Positions 2,098 to 29,614 of a DNA stretch of 32,644 nt are shown in pieces. Positions within the stretch are counted from its first letter, which is position 1; every line of letters begins with the position of its first letter. Position numbers and translations under genes: made by a program. The stretch covers positions 1 through 32,644 of IMG/VR virus record IMGVR_UViG_3300009154_000161, one strand, 5' to 3'. This DNA comes from a virus. Under the pieces are notes generated by a model that saw nothing but the letters and a program-made list of their open reading frames with translations, searched no databases and was not told the origin of the DNA.

Positions 2098-3051
2098 TTA
2101 GATTCCCCATTCTTTGTACATGTCAAATCTTTTGGACCCCAGTTCGCAGATCTTGTTTTTTATTTTATCAGGAAGAAACTTGAACGCGAATTCTATGATG
2201 GAAGATCCTCTTTTTATGGCTTTTTCTCTATCCATTTGAAACATTTTTCTCAGTACGTTTGCATCATAGGCTTTGCATCTATGGCAGTCTGCCGGATCCC
2301 CGCCCGAATTCCAAAAATCGTCTGAATCGAGCCGCTCTCGGTCTACCGCCCAGAATTCTTCATGTACCCTATCTTCTGTTAGATGAACGACCCTTTGGCA
2401 TATGTCGTAGACGAGAGCGACGAGCCTCGGACTGGAAACCCAGAAATTGCCCAGCGTTCTATATTCGGCTCCGTGTTTTGGCTGGCGATATCTCCCTGCC
2501 CGTCCGTAGATCTTCCTTCTTTCGATGCTGCTAGGTCGTCTGTCAATCAAAAGGCTTGAAGTCCCTAAAAAAAGATCCAACATTCTGACCAGCATTATGC
2601 AGTTCTCGTGGGAATGTCCCAAACCGGTTCCCAAGTGAACGTGACCGCCCGCCGTTCTAAATCCACTTTTTTCAAAAAACTTGTTTACACCCGCAGCCGA
2701 GACGTTTTTCATCCGGTACGCACAGAATTCTGCCTCGCACCCCGCTTTCCTTGCGTCCTCATGCAGAAGTTCTCTTTTTTCAAAATTTGCCGCCGAGATA
2801 TTCGTCAAACGAAGCGGACGCACGACACTTGCGTATGTTTTTAAAACTTTCCCCATGTTCTCTATTGCAGCATCTTTGCTTTCAGCGGGCGCAACGGTGC
2901 ACTCCGCCAAGACATTATCGTAAAAGAATTGGTTATTTCCAATTCGAAGCCTCTTTTTCTTTGTTCCTTCCACGACCCCTATAGCGCTTTTGAACTTGCC
3001 TTTTTGGTCCATTAGGATAAACTCTGGGTCGCTTCCGAATGTGAATTTCAT
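2098..3051 (-). CDS. Phage COOH-NH2 ligase type 2 (phiEco32-like)
   Basis: This 317-aa protein resembles the phage COOH-NH2 ligase type 2 family, glutamine-synthetase-like enzymes predicted to join carboxyl and amino groups. Supporting features are FGSDPEFILMD at residues 4-14, an acid-lined core (NVLAECTVAPA), the histidine motif GGHVHLGTG in the middle, and an EYRTLGNFW motif. Members are predicted to make peptide-like tags or modify proteins; the substrate is not known. The start at 3051 is chosen because ATGGAGGACAAAC lies just upstream; a longer reading would begin at 3090. It stands alone, divergent from the gene at 3120. Confidence 0.8.
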   Translation of the reverse strand: MKFTFGSDPEFILMDQKGKFKSAIGVVEGTKKKRLRIGNNQFFYDNVLAECTVAPAESKDAAIENMGKVLKTYASVVRPLRLTNISAANFEKRELLHEDARKAGCEAEFCAYRMKNVSAAGVNKFFEKSGFRTAGGHVHLGTGLGHSHENCIMLVRMLDLFLGTSSLLIDRRPSSIERRKIYGRAGRYRQPKHGAEYRTLGNFWVSSPRLVALVYDICQRVVHLTEDRVHEEFWAVDRERLDSDDFWNSGGDPADCHRCKAYDANVLRKMFQMDREKAIKRGSSIIEFAFKFLPDKIKNKICELGSKRFDMYKEWGI

Positions 3052-3119
3052 GTTTGTCCTCCATGTGGCATTTTGGTTTACCGAGGCCAAAACGTCAAGC
3101 CTTTGACTACATAATCTGA

Positions 3120-4620: not shown

Positions 4621-5211
4621 ATGACATGCCCCATAAATGGCAAGCCTTGCTCTAAATACAAGGGATTCCACATAACCGAAAAGATAGGAGGCAAGACGCA
4701 AGTCTTCGAAGTATGCGAAGATTGCCTTCATGCAAATATGAAAAAGGTAATAGAAATTCCTCAAGAAGCCAATGATTGTGAAATGTGTGGGATGAGTCTG
4801 AGCGATCTTTTAAAATCTACCCAAGTCGGATGTCCTAACTGCTACACGCATTTCGAAAAGACGATTCAACATGTTGTTGCATCCGCCCAAGGGTCTGCGA
4901 ACCTCAGCCATGTCGGCATAGTGCCCGATCAGTACAAAATGCGCACGGCAGAAAACGAGGATCTTGCGTCGTTTTTAGTAGAGTTGGATCACGAAGTCCG
5001 TATGGCGGTATCGGGCGAGAGGTACGAAGAGGTTCCAAAACTTAAAACCAAAATAAAAGAATTTGAGGAAACTCTTGCAAAATACAAAGAGCGTGTTCGC
5101 CTCGACGAGTTCGTAGAGACCGAAAATGAAAGGCGAGCCCCTTCCATTAGAAAAGAACTCGCCAAAATCATTTTTGACTACCGCGAAAGCAAACTACCCA
5201 AGAGCCTCTAG
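4621..5211 (+). CDS. McsA-like zinc-finger/UVR-motif protein
   Basis: A 196-aa protein resembling McsA, the activator of the McsB protein-arginine kinase in hosts that use the Clp system. It has paired cysteines at about residues 3/10, 32/35 (CEDC), 53/56 (CEMCG) and 71/74 (CPNC), consistent with two zinc sites. Residues 118-153 hold a UVR-type coiled-coil motif (LDHEVRMAVSGERYEEVPKL). No McsB homologue is in this window. It could retarget a host kinase or protease system to help the phage, which is inference. It starts four bases after the previous stop and overlaps the convergent subtilisin gene by 18 bases. Confidence 0.7.
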   Translation: MTCPINGKPCSKYKGFHITEKIGGKTQVFEVCEDCLHANMKKVIEIPQEANDCEMCGMSLSDLLKSTQVGCPNCYTHFEKTIQHVVASAQGSANLSHVGIVPDQYKMRTAENEDLASFLVELDHEVRMAVSGERYEEVPKLKTKIKEFEETLAKYKERVRLDEFVETENERRAPSIRKELAKIIFDYRESKLPKSL

Positions 5212-6126
5212 AATTCTTTTCGGCTCCAATATGCCAAAGCCTTGGTAGAACTTGTTGTTCTTGAAAGTATCCGATGTGACTGGAATAGTGTGCTCCTTAA
5301 AGGCCACCCTATAGTCTTCGGCGTTATTCAAATTCAATTTCACATTCATGCTTCTTGAGTAAGACAACACTAATGCCGCTACGCCGGTTGCAAAAGGAGC
5401 GGCCATGCTCGTTCCACTGAGCACCGCATACCAGTTATCCGGAACCGTTGAAAATATCTTGCCTCCCGGACACATGAAGTCCAAATTGTCGCCCGTATTG
5501 CTGAAACTTGATCTGTTAAAGTTTTCGTCGATGGATCCTATCGCTATGGTCTCGGGATAATTCGCAGGATAGAAAATACTTTCGGTAAGACCCGAGTTTC
5601 CTGCCGCCACGAAGCACACAACGTTCTTTGTTGCTGCATATTGTATCGCCTCTCTCACTTCTTGTGTGTGGTTTGGCGATCCGAGCGACATGCAAACCAA
5701 GTCTGCTCCATTATCCGCAGCCCATCTTATGCCAGTGGCGACGCTGCTGATGCTTCCGTTGCCGCTACGATCAAGAACCTTTACGGGCATTACTTTAGCG
5801 TCTGGGGCAACTCCTACCATGCCGATTTCATTATTCTCGGCTACAATTATGCCCGCAACATGGGTTCCGTGCTGGTTGTCATCCCAAGGCATTTCTGATG
5901 GATCCAAGACGTTAAAGCCGGGCAATAAGTTCTTCTTTAGATCCGGATGGTCTAGATCCGCTCCGGTGTCTATCACGGCTATCTTCACCCCTTCTCCTCT
6001 AGACTTTGTCCACGCTTCAGGAAGGTCAAAGGCCGTTACGCTCCAACCCGCTTTTTGCTTGGCATCTTGTATGGAGAATACCTCTTCCCTCTCGAAAGGG
6101 AAAAGACTTAAAGTGTCTTTATTCAT
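5194..6126 (-). CDS. Intracellular-type subtilisin serine protease
   Basis: A 310-aa S8-family protease. The catalytic triad is visible: Asp53 (AVIDTGADLDHPDL), His86 (NQHGTHVAGI) and Ser240 (LSGTSMAAP), with the oxyanion Asn177 (AAGNSG). There is no signal peptide. The short leader has LFPF at residues 8-11, recalling the LIPY propeptide of intracellular subtilisins, so it probably acts in the cytoplasm on host or phage proteins. Its start overlaps the stop of the upstream 6123-6557 gene as ATGA, so the two are probably cotranslated. Length and residue order are normal for a minimal, active enzyme. Confidence 0.93.
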   Translation of the reverse strand: MNKDTLSLFPFEREEVFSIQDAKQKAGWSVTAFDLPEAWTKSRGEGVKIAVIDTGADLDHPDLKKNLLPGFNVLDPSEMPWDDNQHGTHVAGIIVAENNEIGMVGVAPDAKVMPVKVLDRSGNGSISSVATGIRWAADNGADLVCMSLGSPNHTQEVREAIQYAATKNVVCFVAAGNSGLTESIFYPANYPETIAIGSIDENFNRSSFSNTGDNLDFMCPGGKIFSTVPDNWYAVLSGTSMAAPFATGVAALVLSYSRSMNVKLNLNNAEDYRVAFKEHTIPVTSDTFKNNKFYQGFGILEPKRILEALG

Positions 6127-12133: not shown

Positions 12134-12590
12134 AAATAATCCACTCCTTGAAACTGCCCTTTTTTAAAAAGTTCTTGACAACCATCAAGTGCCGATCCAT
12201 ATTTTCTTTAAATTTTGGGTGTAGTTTGTATTCGTTCAGCCCATCCAAATCGACCCAATCATAGTCGGTATGCTCGTCGCTCAATTCGCAATCAAAAGGC
12301 TTGTCTACTTTAAAAAAGAAGGTAGTCCAATCGTGAAGGCCGTCTTTTTCGTGTAAATCCTCAAATCTTTGACCACGTATTGTGCCACATTCCTCCTTGG
12401 CTTCTCTGATTGCGGCATCTATAAGAGATTCTCCCTCCTCCACTTTGCCCCCTGGGATTCCCCAAGTTCCGGCGCAGTCGCCTTTTTCACTTCTCTTGAG
12501 AAGTAAAACCTTTCTGCCGTCTGTGAAAAATATTCCGGCACCTTTGCGGCCCCAATATCGCTTGCCCCCACTTCCTAATCTCGACCACAT
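12123..12590 (-). CDS. Nudix hydrolase (MutT-like)
   Basis: A 155-aa Nudix protein. The Nudix box spans residues 48-70 (GKVEEGE-x7-REAKEECGT), with the catalytic Glu residues of REAKEE intact. A typical upstream strand ([10 protein letters not shown]) is also present. It probably hydrolyses a nucleoside diphosphate derivative, such as an oxidised dNTP, dinucleotide or capped RNA; the substrate cannot be told from sequence. It starts 16 bases inside the end of the upstream LAGLIDADG gene, with AAGGACAG as ribosome binding site, so the two are probably one transcript. Confidence 0.92.
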
Positions 12591-13138
12591 TTTCTGTCCT
12601 TAGGCAGATAGGGACTAACCAGTTTTAAGAACTCCTTGGATGACTCCACATCCAGTCGGACTCGGCAGTTTTTTCTCTCTAGAAAGCCTTCCGATTGCCA
12701 ATCTAAGCTCTTGAAGTACTCTACGATTATCTCCGTCCCTTTTTTCCCCCATATGTTGGTGTTTATCACCACTTGGTCTCCCTTGCATTTGCCGGCGTCT
12801 CCAAACCATATGGCTATACTTGAATCATGAAGCAAATTGAGGTGCTCTATCTTAAGAACTCTGTTTTTCCCCTTGTAGAACATCTCGTGGTATTCATTAA
12901 ATATCGGATAGCAGACGGAATGCCACCGGTTAGTTTTCTCTATAGTTAAAGGCGACTGGGAGGTCAAGTCCTTGAGTTGCTCGGCCTTGAACTTGAGCCA
13001 AGACAAGTCTTTATCTCTCATGGACATATAGCAATTCTTGCCTTTCTGCGGCTTTATTATTGAACTTCCGCCCAATATCGTCCCTATTATCAGGAACTTC
13101 TGCGCCTGTGTTATTTTGGGGTTGATCATGTGTGTCAT
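12575..13138 (-). CDS. LAGLIDADG-type homing endonuclease
   Basis: A 187-aa protein with two motifs of the LAGLIDADG family: [19 protein letters not shown] (residues 16-34) and [14 protein letters not shown] (about 107-120), where the acidic/Gly residues line the DNA-cutting site. Later [20 protein letters not shown] matches the T-x-F/W-S-x-x-E part. It is monomer-type and free-standing: no intron or intein halves are apparent around it. The first LAGLIDADG motif lacks an acidic residue at the catalytic position (GGSS), so cutting activity is uncertain. Such genes often move between phages. Confidence 0.7.
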
Positions 13139-13160: not shown

Positions 13161-13673
13161 TCATACTAATAATTTTGATTCACGCAGCATTTTAGCCATT
13201 TTCATTAAGTGTTTACACATTCCTGGGGCCTTTTCTGGGTTTGCCTCCCAAAGACCTTTTCCCTCATATTTGCCCCTCTTCCTCCCGAATAAAGAACGAT
13301 CTAGACTGTTGTAGTAGTTAAATCTATAGAAGAAGTCCTTGCATGAGCACCGCACGAGCACATCGTCCCGTTCGCTGGATATACGCTCCAGAAAGACCTT
13401 GCGTCCGTCCGAAGCCATCAGCGGAATAACACCTTTTCCCTCTTTAATCTTGTACTTAACGCCTTTGAATAGCATCAAAGGCTCGTACTTTTTACTTTCG
13501 TTTCTTGCTGTTCCCTTTACGAAAAGTGTTTTCATTCCAATGAATGGAACCCACTCTACATGTTCTATTTTCACCGAATCGGTTGCGAACTGTCTCCTTG
13601 TGGTCTCGGGGAACGAATCCACCGAACTCTGATACAAATCCTCGATCGATGATTCTAGCCACAAGCCTTCCAT
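13161..13673 (-). CDS. SWIM-type zinc-finger protein
   Basis: A 170-aa protein whose C-terminal half has a Cys-x-Cys ... Cys-x-His arrangement (VRCSCKDFFYRFNYY at about 109-123, then GMCKHLMKMAKML at about 151-163). This is the SWIM zinc-finger pattern, with a roughly 40-residue insert. SWIM fingers bind DNA or proteins. The N-terminal half is beta-rich (VEWVPFIGMKTLFVKG). It starts directly after a late-type box, and its start codon overlaps that of the plus-strand gene at 13672. Confidence 0.75.
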   Translation of the reverse strand: MEGLWLESSIEDLYQSSVDSFPETTRRQFATDSVKIEHVEWVPFIGMKTLFVKGTARNESKKYEPLMLFKGVKYKIKEGKGVIPLMASDGRKVFLERISSERDDVLVRCSCKDFFYRFNYYNSLDRSLFGRKRGKYEGKGLWEANPEKAPGMCKHLMKMAKMLRESKLLV

Positions 13674-14055
13674 GCCCTATATAGAAGAGTTAATCACCAA
13701 AAGTGACGCTGTAAGCTCTAATTATTGTATGGAAGACAAAGGTTTTATTTACACAGAAGTCCCGCCCTTGGACGAAAGGGGCAATCCAAAGAGAAAGTTC
13801 GAGGTGAGAATGCGATCCCTCGGCTCGGACCCGGCCAAGGACGGCGTAGAGAAGGCAGTGTTCTTGGAAGGCAAGAAACTCGACTTCAAGATAGACGTGC
13901 TGGGGTTCCTTGAGGCGAAAAGCAAGGGCATAAATTACTTCATTCAAGAACAACAGAAGATAGAAAAGGCGTTTGTCAAGGCAGTCTCTGAGGGCCTAGG
14001 CAGAAAAGTCACAACAAAAGAGATCAAGAAGGCAATATTGGAGGGATGGATATGA
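13672..14055 (+). CDS. Unknown protein, first gene of aminotransferase operon
   Basis: A 127-aa protein of unknown family. It has a beta-rich middle (RKFEVRMRSLGSD, EKAVFLEGKKLDFKIDVL) and a helical end with a basic patch (EGLGRKVTTKEIKKAILEG). Start 13672 overlaps the divergent SWIM-gene start in a CATG; a later ATG at 13729 (MEDKGFIYTEV) is possible if the shared late box drives this gene. Its stop overlaps the next start as ATGA, so it is likely cotranslated with the following gene and the lysine aminotransferase. Confidence 0.65.
   Translation: MPYIEELITKSDAVSSNYCMEDKGFIYTEVPPLDERGNPKRKFEVRMRSLGSDPAKDGVEKAVFLEGKKLDFKIDVLGFLEAKSKGINYFIQEQQKIEKAFVKAVSEGLGRKVTTKEIKKAILEGWI
13674..13684. promoter_or_regulatory. 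Late-type box next to the SWIM gene start
   Basis: On the minus strand TATATAGGGC runs straight into ATG 13673. The TATATA core (13678-13683) is palindromic and lies inside the first codons of the divergent plus gene. Confidence 0.5.
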
Positions 14056-14372
14056 AAAATGAGGGTTACGGATACGAATGGGACGCGATGCTTTTCGGTG
14101 GCCCGGCAGATGGTTGCCTCGATATAGCCATAGAACTAAACACCCAAGAACCCCCCGCCATAATCAAGCGGATCGTCAATGGACAAGAGATGAAGAGAGA
14201 AACGCTGGGTGAGAAGTTAATCGAATACCTAGGCGATAACCAGATGGACGGAAATCAAAGGGTGGCCGTATATAAGTTAAGGGAGATCTCCGAAAATCAC
14301 GAAAAGTGCTTTTACGACTATGTGGAGACCATAGAGATGAAAAATTTCCGGCACAAATACGAGAGGACATGA
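14052..14372 (+). CDS. Unknown small protein, middle gene of aminotransferase operon
   Basis: A 106-aa protein starting MKNEGYGYEWDAMLFGGPADG. Start 14052 is preferred over 14046: GGAGG lies about eight bases upstream and the ATG overlaps the previous stop as ATGA. LFGGPADGCLDIAI recalls the short glycine-rich start of small uncharacterised phage proteins. Residues 60-100 (GNQRVAVYKLREISENHEKCF) are strand- and helix-forming. No catalytic motif is seen. It ends in an ATGA overlap with the aminotransferase. Confidence 0.65.
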   Translation: MKNEGYGYEWDAMLFGGPADGCLDIAIELNTQEPPAIIKRIVNGQEMKRETLGEKLIEYLGDNQMDGNQRVAVYKLREISENHEKCFYDYVETIEMKNFRHKYERT

Positions 14373-15583
14373 TTAATCCCAAAGATGTATTAAAAGTTCT
14401 TGGATCTAGATTGCTAATAAACAAGTCCTCCGTGGTTGTAGACTTGGAGAAAAGCCAAGGATCATGGCTAGTGGACGCTAGGACCGGCAAACAATACTTG
14501 GATTGCTTTTCTCAATTCGCCAGCCAAGCCCTCGGTTGGAACCATCCAAAAATGACGGCACAGAAGGAAAGACTCGCCGACGCCGCCGTCAACAAGGTCG
14601 CGAACTACACATACACCACTCAGTTCGCCGAATTCGTAAAAAAGTTTTCGGAGTTTACGCCCGACTTCAACCATCACTTCTATGTATGTGGCGGAGCCAT
14701 AGCGGTAGAGAACGCTCTCGAGGCCGCATTCGATTGGAAAGGCAAGAAGATGGGGATCTCTGAAGAAAAGTCACTCAACTCCCTCCAAGTGGTTTATCTA
14801 AAGGACGCCTTTCACGGACGAAGTGGTTGTTTACCAAAATTCAACTGGAAGAAGATACACAATCCTAAAGTCTGGCATGAACTCGGTGTCGTAGACGATA
14901 TCAAGGCCAAGAACTCCGAAACGATGGCCATAGACGAGGCCGTCAAAGTCTTGGAAAAAAGAAACGTAGCGGCCATAATAATAGAACCTATTCAAGGCTA
15001 TGGCGGAGACAACCACTTCAGAGTCGAATTCCTCTCCGAACTCAGAAGGCTTGCCGACGAGTACGAGGCCTTACTCATATTCGACGAGGTTCAAACTGGC
15101 TTGGGTTTGACAGGTAAGACATGGGCGTACGAGCACTTCGGCGTAGAGCCGGACATAATGTGCTTCGGAGATAAGGTTCAAGTCGGTGGCTTTTGCACCG
15201 GAGATAGAATTAATGAATTCAAGAAATTTTTCTCCACAGATTGCTCAACATGGGGCGGAAATATAGTTGACATGGTAAGGTCTACTATGCAAATGGAAAT
15301 CATAGAAGACGAAGATTTGGCGTCCAACGCTCACCATGTGGGAGAATATTTTCTCCAGAAACTCAAGTCATTCCACGGCAAGGCCAGCAACATAAGGGGC
15401 AAGGGTTTGATGATTTCGTTCGATCTTCCCACACCCGAAGAAAGGGACGCATTTCTCAAGAGACTAGAAAAAAATATGCTCGCCTTGCCTTGCGGTCAGA
15501 AATCTGTGAGTTTCAGACCTCACCTCACATTCTCTAAGTTGGATGTGGATGAAGCGATAGGATTTATAGGAAAGGCCATATAA
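14369..15583 (+). CDS. lat: L-lysine 6-transaminase (PLP, class III)
   Basis: A 404-aa class III aminotransferase closely like L-lysine epsilon-aminotransferases, which move the side-chain amino group of lysine to 2-oxoglutarate, giving allysine that cyclises to piperideine-6-carboxylate. Family blocks: LVDARTGKQYLDCFSQFAS (34-52), GGAIAVENALEAAFDWK (108-124), DAFHGRSG (146-153), IIEPIQGYGGD (204-214), LLIFDEVQTG (235-244, Asp239 facing the PLP ring), FGDKVQVGG (266-274, Lys269 the PLP lysine) and a STWGGN block. The loop after GRSG is about 15 residues shorter than in the bacterial enzymes I recall, joining directly to PKFNW. GAGAGGAC precedes ATG 14369, which overlaps the previous stop. Confidence 0.88.
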   Translation: MINPKDVLKVLGSRLLINKSSVVVDLEKSQGSWLVDARTGKQYLDCFSQFASQALGWNHPKMTAQKERLADAAVNKVANYTYTTQFAEFVKKFSEFTPDFNHHFYVCGGAIAVENALEAAFDWKGKKMGISEEKSLNSLQVVYLKDAFHGRSGCLPKFNWKKIHNPKVWHELGVVDDIKAKNSETMAIDEAVKVLEKRNVAAIIIEPIQGYGGDNHFRVEFLSELRRLADEYEALLIFDEVQTGLGLTGKTWAYEHFGVEPDIMCFGDKVQVGGFCTGDRINEFKKFFSTDCSTWGGNIVDMVRSTMQMEIIEDEDLASNAHHVGEYFLQKLKSFHGKASNIRGKGLMISFDLPTPEERDAFLKRLEKNMLALPCGQKSVSFRPHLTFSKLDVDEAIGFIGKAI

Positions 15584-25680: not shown

Positions 25681-27279
25681 ATGCCCAGAGAAACCAACAT
25701 TGAAATTAGAAAAGGTTCGAAGGTGGCTTGGGAAAGCACAAATCCAGTCCTCGAGGCAGGAGAACCGGGCTTCGAGACAGACACTAAGAAACTGAAACTT
25801 GGAAATGGAACCACCGCATGGAACAACCTTCCTTACTTCCGCGCGGATGGCGGAGAACTTGTCGACGGCGACGGCAACAATGCAAACATCGCCTTTGATC
25901 CGAATTATGTTGGAGAATTCATAGAGTTAAGCAACAATAGTTGTACCTCTTCATTTACATCTGACGCTAGTGAAAATGAAACATCAGTTTTAACAAACTA
26001 CGCAATAAAAAATAGTGAAAAAGTAGTTTTTAGTATGGTTACGAATTTTGGTGGAGCCATCTCATACACAGGAGTAGGTATAGCTAATCGCCAGCACGAT
26101 GTGAATTATCAAAACAACGGAGGTTACTTAGGTGCAAATAATAATTCTATTGGTATTTACGACAACGGAAGCATTTATTTTAACGACAAAGAAGTTGTTA
26201 ACTTAGATTTAAATTTTCAACTAGATGGAAGCGTTGTAGACGTTGCTGTTGATAGAGTAAACAATCTAATGTGGTTTAGAGCGAATGGAGGGTATTGGAA
26301 TGGAGACAACACACAAAACCCAGAAACAGCAACTGGTGGAGTGGACATTTCATCTATAACTGGCGATGTTTATCCGGGTGCTTGTCCATATGCTTATCAA
26401 GGCGTTTTCGGTCAAATATCTATCAACAGTTCAATATCGTCGCCACCAGCAGGGTTCAAAGTTTTGGTGAGTTCGCAACAAGCTCCATTAACAAGGTATT
26501 ATTATTTTATAGACCATTCACAACCACCATATGACTGGGACCATCAGTCACCACTAAATGGTGAGTGGAATGATCTCAACAATTGGTGGCTAAACGGAGT
26601 GTCTACAGTAGCGGCTACTAGACTTCCAAATTCAAACGACAATGTTAAAATATTTTCACAAGTTCAAACTAATAGAGGATCAACACCTACAGTACAAAAT
26701 ATGTTTATCTCGACACTGCCGAGTGTCGGTGAACTTGGAATTGGCATAGAAATAAATGTTTCAGGAATAGCTAGGTTCTATGGGTCCACCTACATACAGA
26801 ATGTCAGCCAGACTGTCACTGGCTTCCCCACAATCGCAAAAATAAATGGAAATTGTGTTTTCTATGGAACAGATAGCGGACCTTATGCCACTATAAGCGT
26901 AGCAGACGCTGTTGTGAATGGAAATGCTACTTTTTATGGCGAGTCAAAAAATAATGGGACTGTAGCAGGAAACGCTATATTTAGCGAGAGTTCAAAAAAT
27001 GATTACAACAGCACTGCTGGTTTTCTTGGGGTAGTGAGTGGGGAAGCTACCTTTGAGTATGGTGCTACTAATTACGGAGTTGTAAACAACAATGCAACTT
27101 TTAATGATAGTTCAATAAACTACAAGACCGTGAATGGAAATGCCACTTTTAATAGTGCATCACAAAATAGCGAATCTGGAGTTGTAAATGGCAATGCTAT
27201 TTTTAATCAATGCTCAAGAAATTTCGGAACAGTAACAGAAAATGTTACATTAAATAATGACGATGACGATGACTGCTGA
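25681..27279 (+). CDS. Tail-fibre-like protein with repeat domain
   Basis: A 532-aa protein. Residues 3-56 match the N-terminal domain widespread in phage tail and tropism proteins (NPVLEAGEPGFETDTKKLKL, then GNGTTAWNNLPYF). Residues 70-290 hold a beta-sandwich-like part. From about 400 there are repeats with the core V-x-G-N-A-T/I-F-x(5)-S-x-N, seven or more copies, which look like a beta-helix or pentapeptide-like rod. The end is DDDDDC. From about residue 75 onwards base composition is AT-richer than the neighbours. It is probably a receptor-binding fibre or spike. AGGAATATCAA precedes the ATG. Confidence 0.8.
   Translation: MPRETNIEIRKGSKVAWESTNPVLEAGEPGFETDTKKLKLGNGTTAWNNLPYFRADGGELVDGDGNNANIAFDPNYVGEFIELSNNSCTSSFTSDASENETSVLTNYAIKNSEKVVFSMVTNFGGAISYTGVGIANRQHDVNYQNNGGYLGANNNSIGIYDNGSIYFNDKEVVNLDLNFQLDGSVVDVAVDRVNNLMWFRANGGYWNGDNTQNPETATGGVDISSITGDVYPGACPYAYQGVFGQISINSSISSPPAGFKVLVSSQQAPLTRYYYFIDHSQPPYDWDHQSPLNGEWNDLNNWWLNGVSTVAATRLPNSNDNVKIFSQVQTNRGSTPTVQNMFISTLPSVGELGIGIEINVSGIARFYGSTYIQNVSQTVTGFPTIAKINGNCVFYGTDSGPYATISVADAVVNGNATFYGESKNNGTVAGNAIFSESSKNDYNSTAGFLGVVSGEATFEYGATNYGVVNNNATFNDSSINYKTVNGNATFNSASQNSESGVVNGNAIFNQCSRNFGTVTENVTLNNDDDDDC
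26905..27265 (+). repeat. Coding repeat of VxGNATF-type units
   Basis: Degenerate repeats of 51-66 bp, each encoding V-x-G-N-A-T/I-F, then a Ser/Asn/Gly linker, form the C-terminal rod of the tail-fibre-like protein. Confidence 0.8.
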
Positions 27280-29227: not shown

Positions 29228-29614
29228 TTAACTCTCCGCCTTCAACTTCGCCAAATTATACGCAATTCCTACAAGATTGTCCCAATTCTTCTCGATGTAC
29301 TCAGGAGGACCGCCAATCTGGGCAACAACGTCGGCTGCCTTTTCCGTCGGAACCATTTCAATAGCATCCCAAGGACAAACCTTCAGATCATAAGGATTGG
29401 TTTTCTTTCCGGGAATATGAACACAGACCTCGCAACCAACACATCTGTCCAAATCAATCTGGCACCAACTCTGAAGATTATGGAACTTGTCGTGCTGCTG
29501 AATCTTGATAATACAATCAACAGGACAAACCTCCAAACAAGCCTCGCACCCAGTGCAATTATCTGCATTTATAATGGCCAACTCTTTTGGAAGTTTCTTT
29601 CTGGGGCTCTTCAT
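29228..29614 (-). CDS. Dicluster 2[4Fe-4S] ferredoxin
   Basis: A 128-aa ferredoxin. The first Cys set is CTGCEACLEVCP (residues about 19-30); the second is CVGCEVC (about 58-64) with its last Cys after a 15-residue insert (VCPWDAI, about 80-86). The extra insert is unusual: clostridial-type ferredoxins have three residues there. The remaining 40 residues are a helical tail. It probably shuttles electrons to a host or phage redox enzyme in the cytoplasm. The sequence recalls planctomycete-type dicluster ferredoxins. CTAGATAGGGC directly precedes the ATG, so its mRNA is probably leaderless. Confidence 0.88.
   Translation of the reverse strand: MKSPRKKLPKELAIINADNCTGCEACLEVCPVDCIIKIQQHDKFHNLQSWCQIDLDRCVGCEVCVHIPGKKTNPYDLKVCPWDAIEMVPTEKAADVVAQIGGPPEYIEKNWDNLVGIAYNLAKLKAES

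Follow-up and report, generated by a model that had tools for sequence, protein, structure and literature searches.

The window, that is, the whole stretch of viral DNA analysed here, is a linear virus record of 32,644 bases in which three co-directional genes lie head to tail on the + strand: ORF1 (P0002, 13672-14055, 127 amino acids as listed), ORF2 (P0003, 14046-14372, 108 amino acids) and ORF3 (14369-15583, 404 amino acids from the ATG at 14369), encoding a protein of the L-lysine 6-transaminase (LAT) family that has lost active-site residues. An earlier, sequence-only reading of this DNA had described two small genes in front of the transaminase with ATGA overlaps. This is correct for ORF2 and ORF3, which share ATGA at 14369-14372, but the overlap between ORF1 and ORF2 is 10 nt and reduces to ATGA only if ORF2 begins at its second ATG (14052). 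The mechanical ORF list places the beginning of ORF3 at 14306, which was rejected as too long, homologues beginning at the ATGA. Judging from where P0002 homologues start, the true start of ORF1 is probably 13729 (Met20). The mechanical P0002 start at 13672 collides with the start codon of a divergent gene (13161-13673, - strand; window positions 13671-13674), an overlap which vanishes with the homologue-supported start. The divergent gene and the gene for a LAGLIDADG_2 family protein (12575-13138, - strand) are conserved neighbours, found in 16 and 17 viral LAT loci, respectively.

By profile, tree and structure, ORF3 belongs to the LAT lineage. Its product matched Pfam Aminotran_3 (PF00202) with 270 bits and has the class-III aminotransferase fold. 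The best NCBIfam model was LAT_fam TIGR03251 (417.6 bits, the next family scoring 201.6), 103 bits under the equivalog cut-off of 520.8 bits. Missing this cut-off is not decisive by itself, since scores slightly under it (477-514 bits) were also obtained for several viral LATs whose active sites are complete. The closest solved structure, both by sequence and by fold, was M. tuberculosis LAT, Rv3290c (PDB 2cin; mutants 2jje, 2jjf and 2jjh), with about 297 bits versus 142 for GABA aminotransferase. An AlphaFold2 model of ORF3 (pLDDT 85, pTM 0.87) aligned to it with a Foldseek TM of 0.92 and a VIA-align Z of 48.6 (rmsd 1.9 over 397 residues), compared with a Z of about 41 for GABA aminotransferase. 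In a tree of 64 sequences ORF3 sits on the LAT side of a 100/100 branch and not with the other class-III enzymes. The assignment to a phage-borne LAT lineage made from the letters alone was thus borne out, tree, profile and model excluding the ornithine and GABA aminotransferase clades. Cellular LATs of Bacteroidota and Acidobacteriota (TIGR03251) are of the same family and 41-46% identical to the window protein; unlike it, they retain a complete active site and fall outside the viral clade.

The same reading knew of no common phage gene of this type, a view that did not survive the search for relatives. A tblastn search recovered a 48.6% relative in LR756511, a 595-kb uncultured phage record, and the close relatives of ORF3 in IMG/VR were L002 (71%) and L003 (70%), hereafter the sister phages. 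When IMG/VR was searched with an alignment query, 38 loci were obtained. At least 34 distinct viral LATs, the window included, formed one clade (100/100) apart from the bacterial LATs in the 64-sequence tree, in which the window groups with L002 and L003, then with L007. The records carrying them reach 595 kb, and terminase was present in 9 of the 20 records tested, among them LR756511, the L002 record and one record of the aldehyde dehydrogenase group described below. The LATs of LR756511, L007, L011, L018 and others belong to the same viral clade as the window protein; they keep the equivalents of Lys300, Glu243 and Arg422 of the M. tuberculosis enzyme, which the window protein does not. Many viral LATs also share its neighbours, the LAGLIDADG and P0002-like genes. 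One viral row, L036, fell outside the viral clade, and a second origin of viral LAT is possible there from its placement. A divergent viral LAT at L033:5479-7191 (+ strand), which as called carries a long extension at its N-terminus, shows 12 near-invariant changes with the catalytic lysine kept, and may represent a second functional shift. Literature searches of open-licence papers found no description of a phage LAT, and neither transaminases nor aminotransferases come up in the main text of PMC7162821, a paper on huge phages. The viral LAT clade is a recurrent and apparently undescribed part of many giant phage genomes.

To what use such an enzyme might be put is suggested by the genes found beside it. 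In 9 loci (L008, L013-L016, L018, L033, L037 and L038) LAT is followed at a distance of about 1.6-3.2 kb, in the same orientation, by a gene for glutamate dehydrogenase (GDH), and GDH was also present in 5 of 9 further LAT-positive records. None of the 8 P0002-bearing records without LAT had GDH, giving 14 of about 34 LAT-positive versus 0 of 8 LAT-negative records (Fisher p 0.037, the records being fragments and related to each other). In 16 other loci the companions of LAT are an aldehyde dehydrogenase gene and one resembling arginine dihydrolase; this operon was seen at L027:3331-7188, L017:3735-7218 and L042:3715-7212 and in 13 similar viral loci, and in the three loci that were measured consecutive frames touch or overlap. 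The best model for the arginine dihydrolase-like gene was NF052232 (237.6 bits, under the cut-off of 450), and its best PDB match was Sll1336/Alr4995, cyanobacterial arginine dihydrolases. This gene order suggests a breakdown of arginine to ornithine and glutamate, and the substrate of LAT in this group may be ornithine rather than lysine. The aldehyde dehydrogenase was also considered as a piperideine-6-carboxylate dehydrogenase, a reading that was not adopted, both proteins tested being middling matches to NF050084, far under its cut-off. In LR756511 an aldehyde dehydrogenase 54-56% identical to those of the operons is located elsewhere in the genome, and GDH was not found. Neither partner was seen in the window, L002 and L003 records, all of which are fragments.

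As far as gene neighbourhood can tell, the common theme of the LAT partners is nitrogen and reducing power released from basic amino acids. In the large-phage clade, LAT most likely transfers the terminal amino group from lysine (or ornithine) to 2-oxoglutarate; the resulting glutamate would be deaminated by the phage GDH or, alternatively, the semialdehyde would be oxidised by the phage aldehyde dehydrogenase. Ammonia, 2-oxoglutarate and NAD(P)H would in this way be gained from amino acids of the host. The partner genes thus predict a route from amino acids to ammonia and 2-oxoglutarate during infection by very large phages. Three uses had been proposed beforehand, namely a modified base, a modified phage protein or host lysine breakdown for nitrogen. 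Nitrogen supply fits the GDH, aldehyde dehydrogenase and arginine dihydrolase genes of the relatives, but nothing was seen for base or protein modification. A D12-type adenine methyltransferase is the one base-modifying gene seen repeatedly in the vicinity of LAT, and a role in DNA-base modification found no support among the LAT neighbours.

The two small genes differ in their relation to LAT. Single-protein scans returned one relative for P0002 and none for P0003, and 37 viral relatives of P0002 were collected. LAT lies nearby in 25 of these and is absent from the other 12, so P0002 is resident in this region, where LAT is the accessory gene; P0002 as an obligate partner of LAT was rejected on the same count. 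P0002 gave no consistent family and no PDB fold match, with 2 of 30 members weakly matching phrog_1339 'internal virion protein'. P0003 is the better candidate for a functional link, because it was seen only beside LAT and is missing together with LAT in the related record L087.

The active site of M. tuberculosis LAT comprises Glu243, Arg422, Gln274, Lys300, Arg170, Phe167, Thr330 and Asn328, with Lys300 forming the Schiff base and Glu243/Arg422 acting as a substrate switch (PMC9780415). Counted along the chain, Lys300 corresponds to the first of the two lysines in FGKK. In our alignment its column is occupied in the window protein by Asp268 (codon GAT, 15170-15172, + strand), the sister phages L002 and L003 having AAA and AAG. 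The switch is replaced by Tyr211 (TAT, 14999-15001, + strand; GAC, Asp, in L002 and GAG, Glu, in L003) and Ser381 (AGT, 15509-15511, + strand; AGG/CGA in the sisters). Asn328, a contact for C5 substrates, is lost through an in-frame deletion of three residues before STWGGN (approximately 15236-15250, + strand; low model confidence at residues 290-294), or is Cys under an alternative alignment. The loop after HGRSG is 17 residues shorter than in both sister phages, the frame being unbroken across the junction (approximately 14822-14836, + strand; low model confidence at residues 150-156), which agrees with the previous remark that a shortened loop after GRSG marks an unusual subtype.

Lys300 is retained in 59/59 other LATs aligned, in 5/5 non-LAT class-III enzymes and in 8/8 further viral LATs. 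The register of the alignment is fixed by the non-LAT enzymes, which have lysine in the Lys300 column and G, S or A, never lysine, in the next. It follows that the lysine of FGDKVQVGG, taken beforehand as the PLP lysine of a complete lat pattern, was off by one: it is Lys269 (Mtb Lys301), the Schiff-base column holds Asp268, and the equivalents of Lys300, Glu243, Arg422 and Asn328 are all gone. This register ruled out an active LAT that would use the lysine of FGDK for PLP, the class-III lysine being Asp here. No weight was given to a PROSITE-type class-III pattern, which in the full form used missed some good LATs; its lysine core occurs in every other row and is absent from the window. A sequencing error was also rejected, the catalytic codon being two bases off that of either sister and the deletions in frame.

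The window protein retains 10 of 11 PLP-pocket residues, a pocket which it has in common with Rv3290c, and the equivalents of Arg170 (Arg151), Asp271, Gln274 and Thr330 remain; what it lacks relative to Rv3290c is Lys300, Glu243, Arg422, Asn328 and the post-HGRSG loop. Of 80 near-invariant positions 13 are changed in the window, 6 in L002, 3 in L003 and none in the median row. Both sisters have active-site changes of their own (E243D and N328R in L002; F167V in L003), and the full set of catalytic losses was seen in the window sequence only. According to alignment and model, an essential catalytic residue is replaced and the fold is kept, as in a pseudoenzyme.

These losses bear directly on the proposed production of allysine/piperideine-6-carboxylate. 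That ORF3 encodes an ordinary lysine 6-transaminase with this activity agrees with its family, fold and phylogeny, but we consider it very improbable, because the protein lacks the catalytic lysine, the substrate switch and Asn328 and misses by 103 bits the TIGR03251 cut-off that L003 and L007 pass. It is also improbable, if a little less so, that the protein is still an enzyme of another kind, in which Lys269 or a non-covalent PLP mechanism would operate and another amine would fit the pocket as altered by Tyr211, Ser381 and the missing loop. The adjacent position of Lys269 and the remaining Arg170, Asp271, Gln274 and Thr330 equivalents would be consistent with this. Other viral amino-acid enzymes have changed substrate: retrieved passages of PMC9992855, which are not about LAT, describe virus-encoded polyamine and amino-acid decarboxylases, some with shifted substrate. 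Like viral LAT these are virus-carried amino-acid enzymes, and they have been shown to be active. However, Lys301 already accompanies Lys300 in other LATs, so Lys269 is not a new replacement, and the joint loss of the aldimine lysine, the switch and Asn328 is hard to square with transamination.

A more serious alternative is that the gene is on its way out, LAT being dispensable and this copy, functionless, having been inactivated recently with stops and frameshifts yet to come. The record L087 (150 kb) is syntenic with the window, its LAGLIDADG gene being 85% identical. There P0002 is followed directly by the genes that follow LAT elsewhere; P0003 and LAT are missing, and the record contains no class-III aminotransferase. 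The loss of LAT from so close a relative shows that the gene is dispensable in the lineage of the window. A six-gene tree did not decide whether L087 or L003 is nearer to the window (support 57-67). The separate changes in L002 and L003 are as expected under relaxed need, and TIGR03251 scores drop from 547 (L007) to 526 (L003), 494 (L002) and 418 (window). The reading frame, on the other hand, is open, and none of the four gaps in the alignment with the sisters shifts it. Random changes introduced into an ancestor proxy create a stop in about 3.8% of cases, so that a lack of stops carries no significance of its own. Branch pN/pS, counted only at sites with the same codon in both other sequences, was 0.071 for the window, 0.089 for L002 and 0.086 for L003; the window value, no higher than those of the sisters, argues that the protein was constrained overall for most of its branch. 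Synonymous sites are saturated, which leaves room for a recent neutral decay. Substitutions in near-invariant columns numbered 5/40 on the window branch versus 1/38 and 1/43 on the sister branches (Fisher p 0.039), and 3 of 6 near-invariant substitutions fell within the set of eight active-site residues (p ~0.012), p values which come from few changes and from residue sets chosen after looking. The PLP pocket was spared while the reacting residues were lost, which speaks against simple decay. Taken together, these observations make a gene on its way out a serious possibility, though somewhat less likely than not.

All in all, the window protein is probably a dead or repurposed enzyme whose fold is preserved. 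The choice between a gene on its way out and a retained pseudoenzyme is close, and we lean slightly towards the latter. That a phage nitrogen-salvage transaminase has turned non-catalytic and been kept as a pseudoenzyme has, in our estimate from sequence, nearly an even chance. The window protein would then descend from an active phage LAT and no longer be able to transaminate, the reacting residues and the loop having gone and the rest of the fold and a non-covalent PLP pocket having been kept. It would be folded, probably dimeric, and might hold PLP or PMP without reacting; its retained role would be non-catalytic, for example to bind the cofactor or to associate with a transaminase subunit that is active. 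Retained dead PLP-fold subunits that act by binding a partner include antizyme inhibitor and, in serine palmitoyltransferase, the SPTLC1 subunit. They resemble the window protein in having lost catalytic residues, but belong to other families and hosts, and the partner of the window protein is hypothetical. The more specific version, in which the pseudoenzyme holds PLP/PMP or enters inactive mixed dimers with a transaminase of the host or of a co-infecting phage within a huge-phage nitrogen-salvage system, seems rather unlikely. A second class-III aminotransferase, considered as a partner encoded in the same record, was found neither in the window nor in 19 related records, mostly fragments.

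LAT, viral metabolic genes and pseudoenzymes are known kinds; their combination here is new. The relatives form a natural series from the complete enzyme (L007) through altered sites (L003, L002) and loss of the lysine (window) to loss of the gene (L087), which makes the phages' need for LAT testable. Caution is warranted in annotation, where the family name alone would make the window protein an active lysine transaminase.

Other genes were recognised in the window. These encode a phiEco32-like COOH.NH2 ligase (2098-3090, - strand; PF14395, phrog_3815), a subtilase-family protease (5194-6126, - strand; PF00082, 200 bits), a tail-fibre candidate with a Major tropism determinant N-terminal domain (Mtd_N; 25681-27279, + strand) and a ferredoxin-like protein with 4Fe-4S motifs (29228-29614, - strand; Pfam Fer4).
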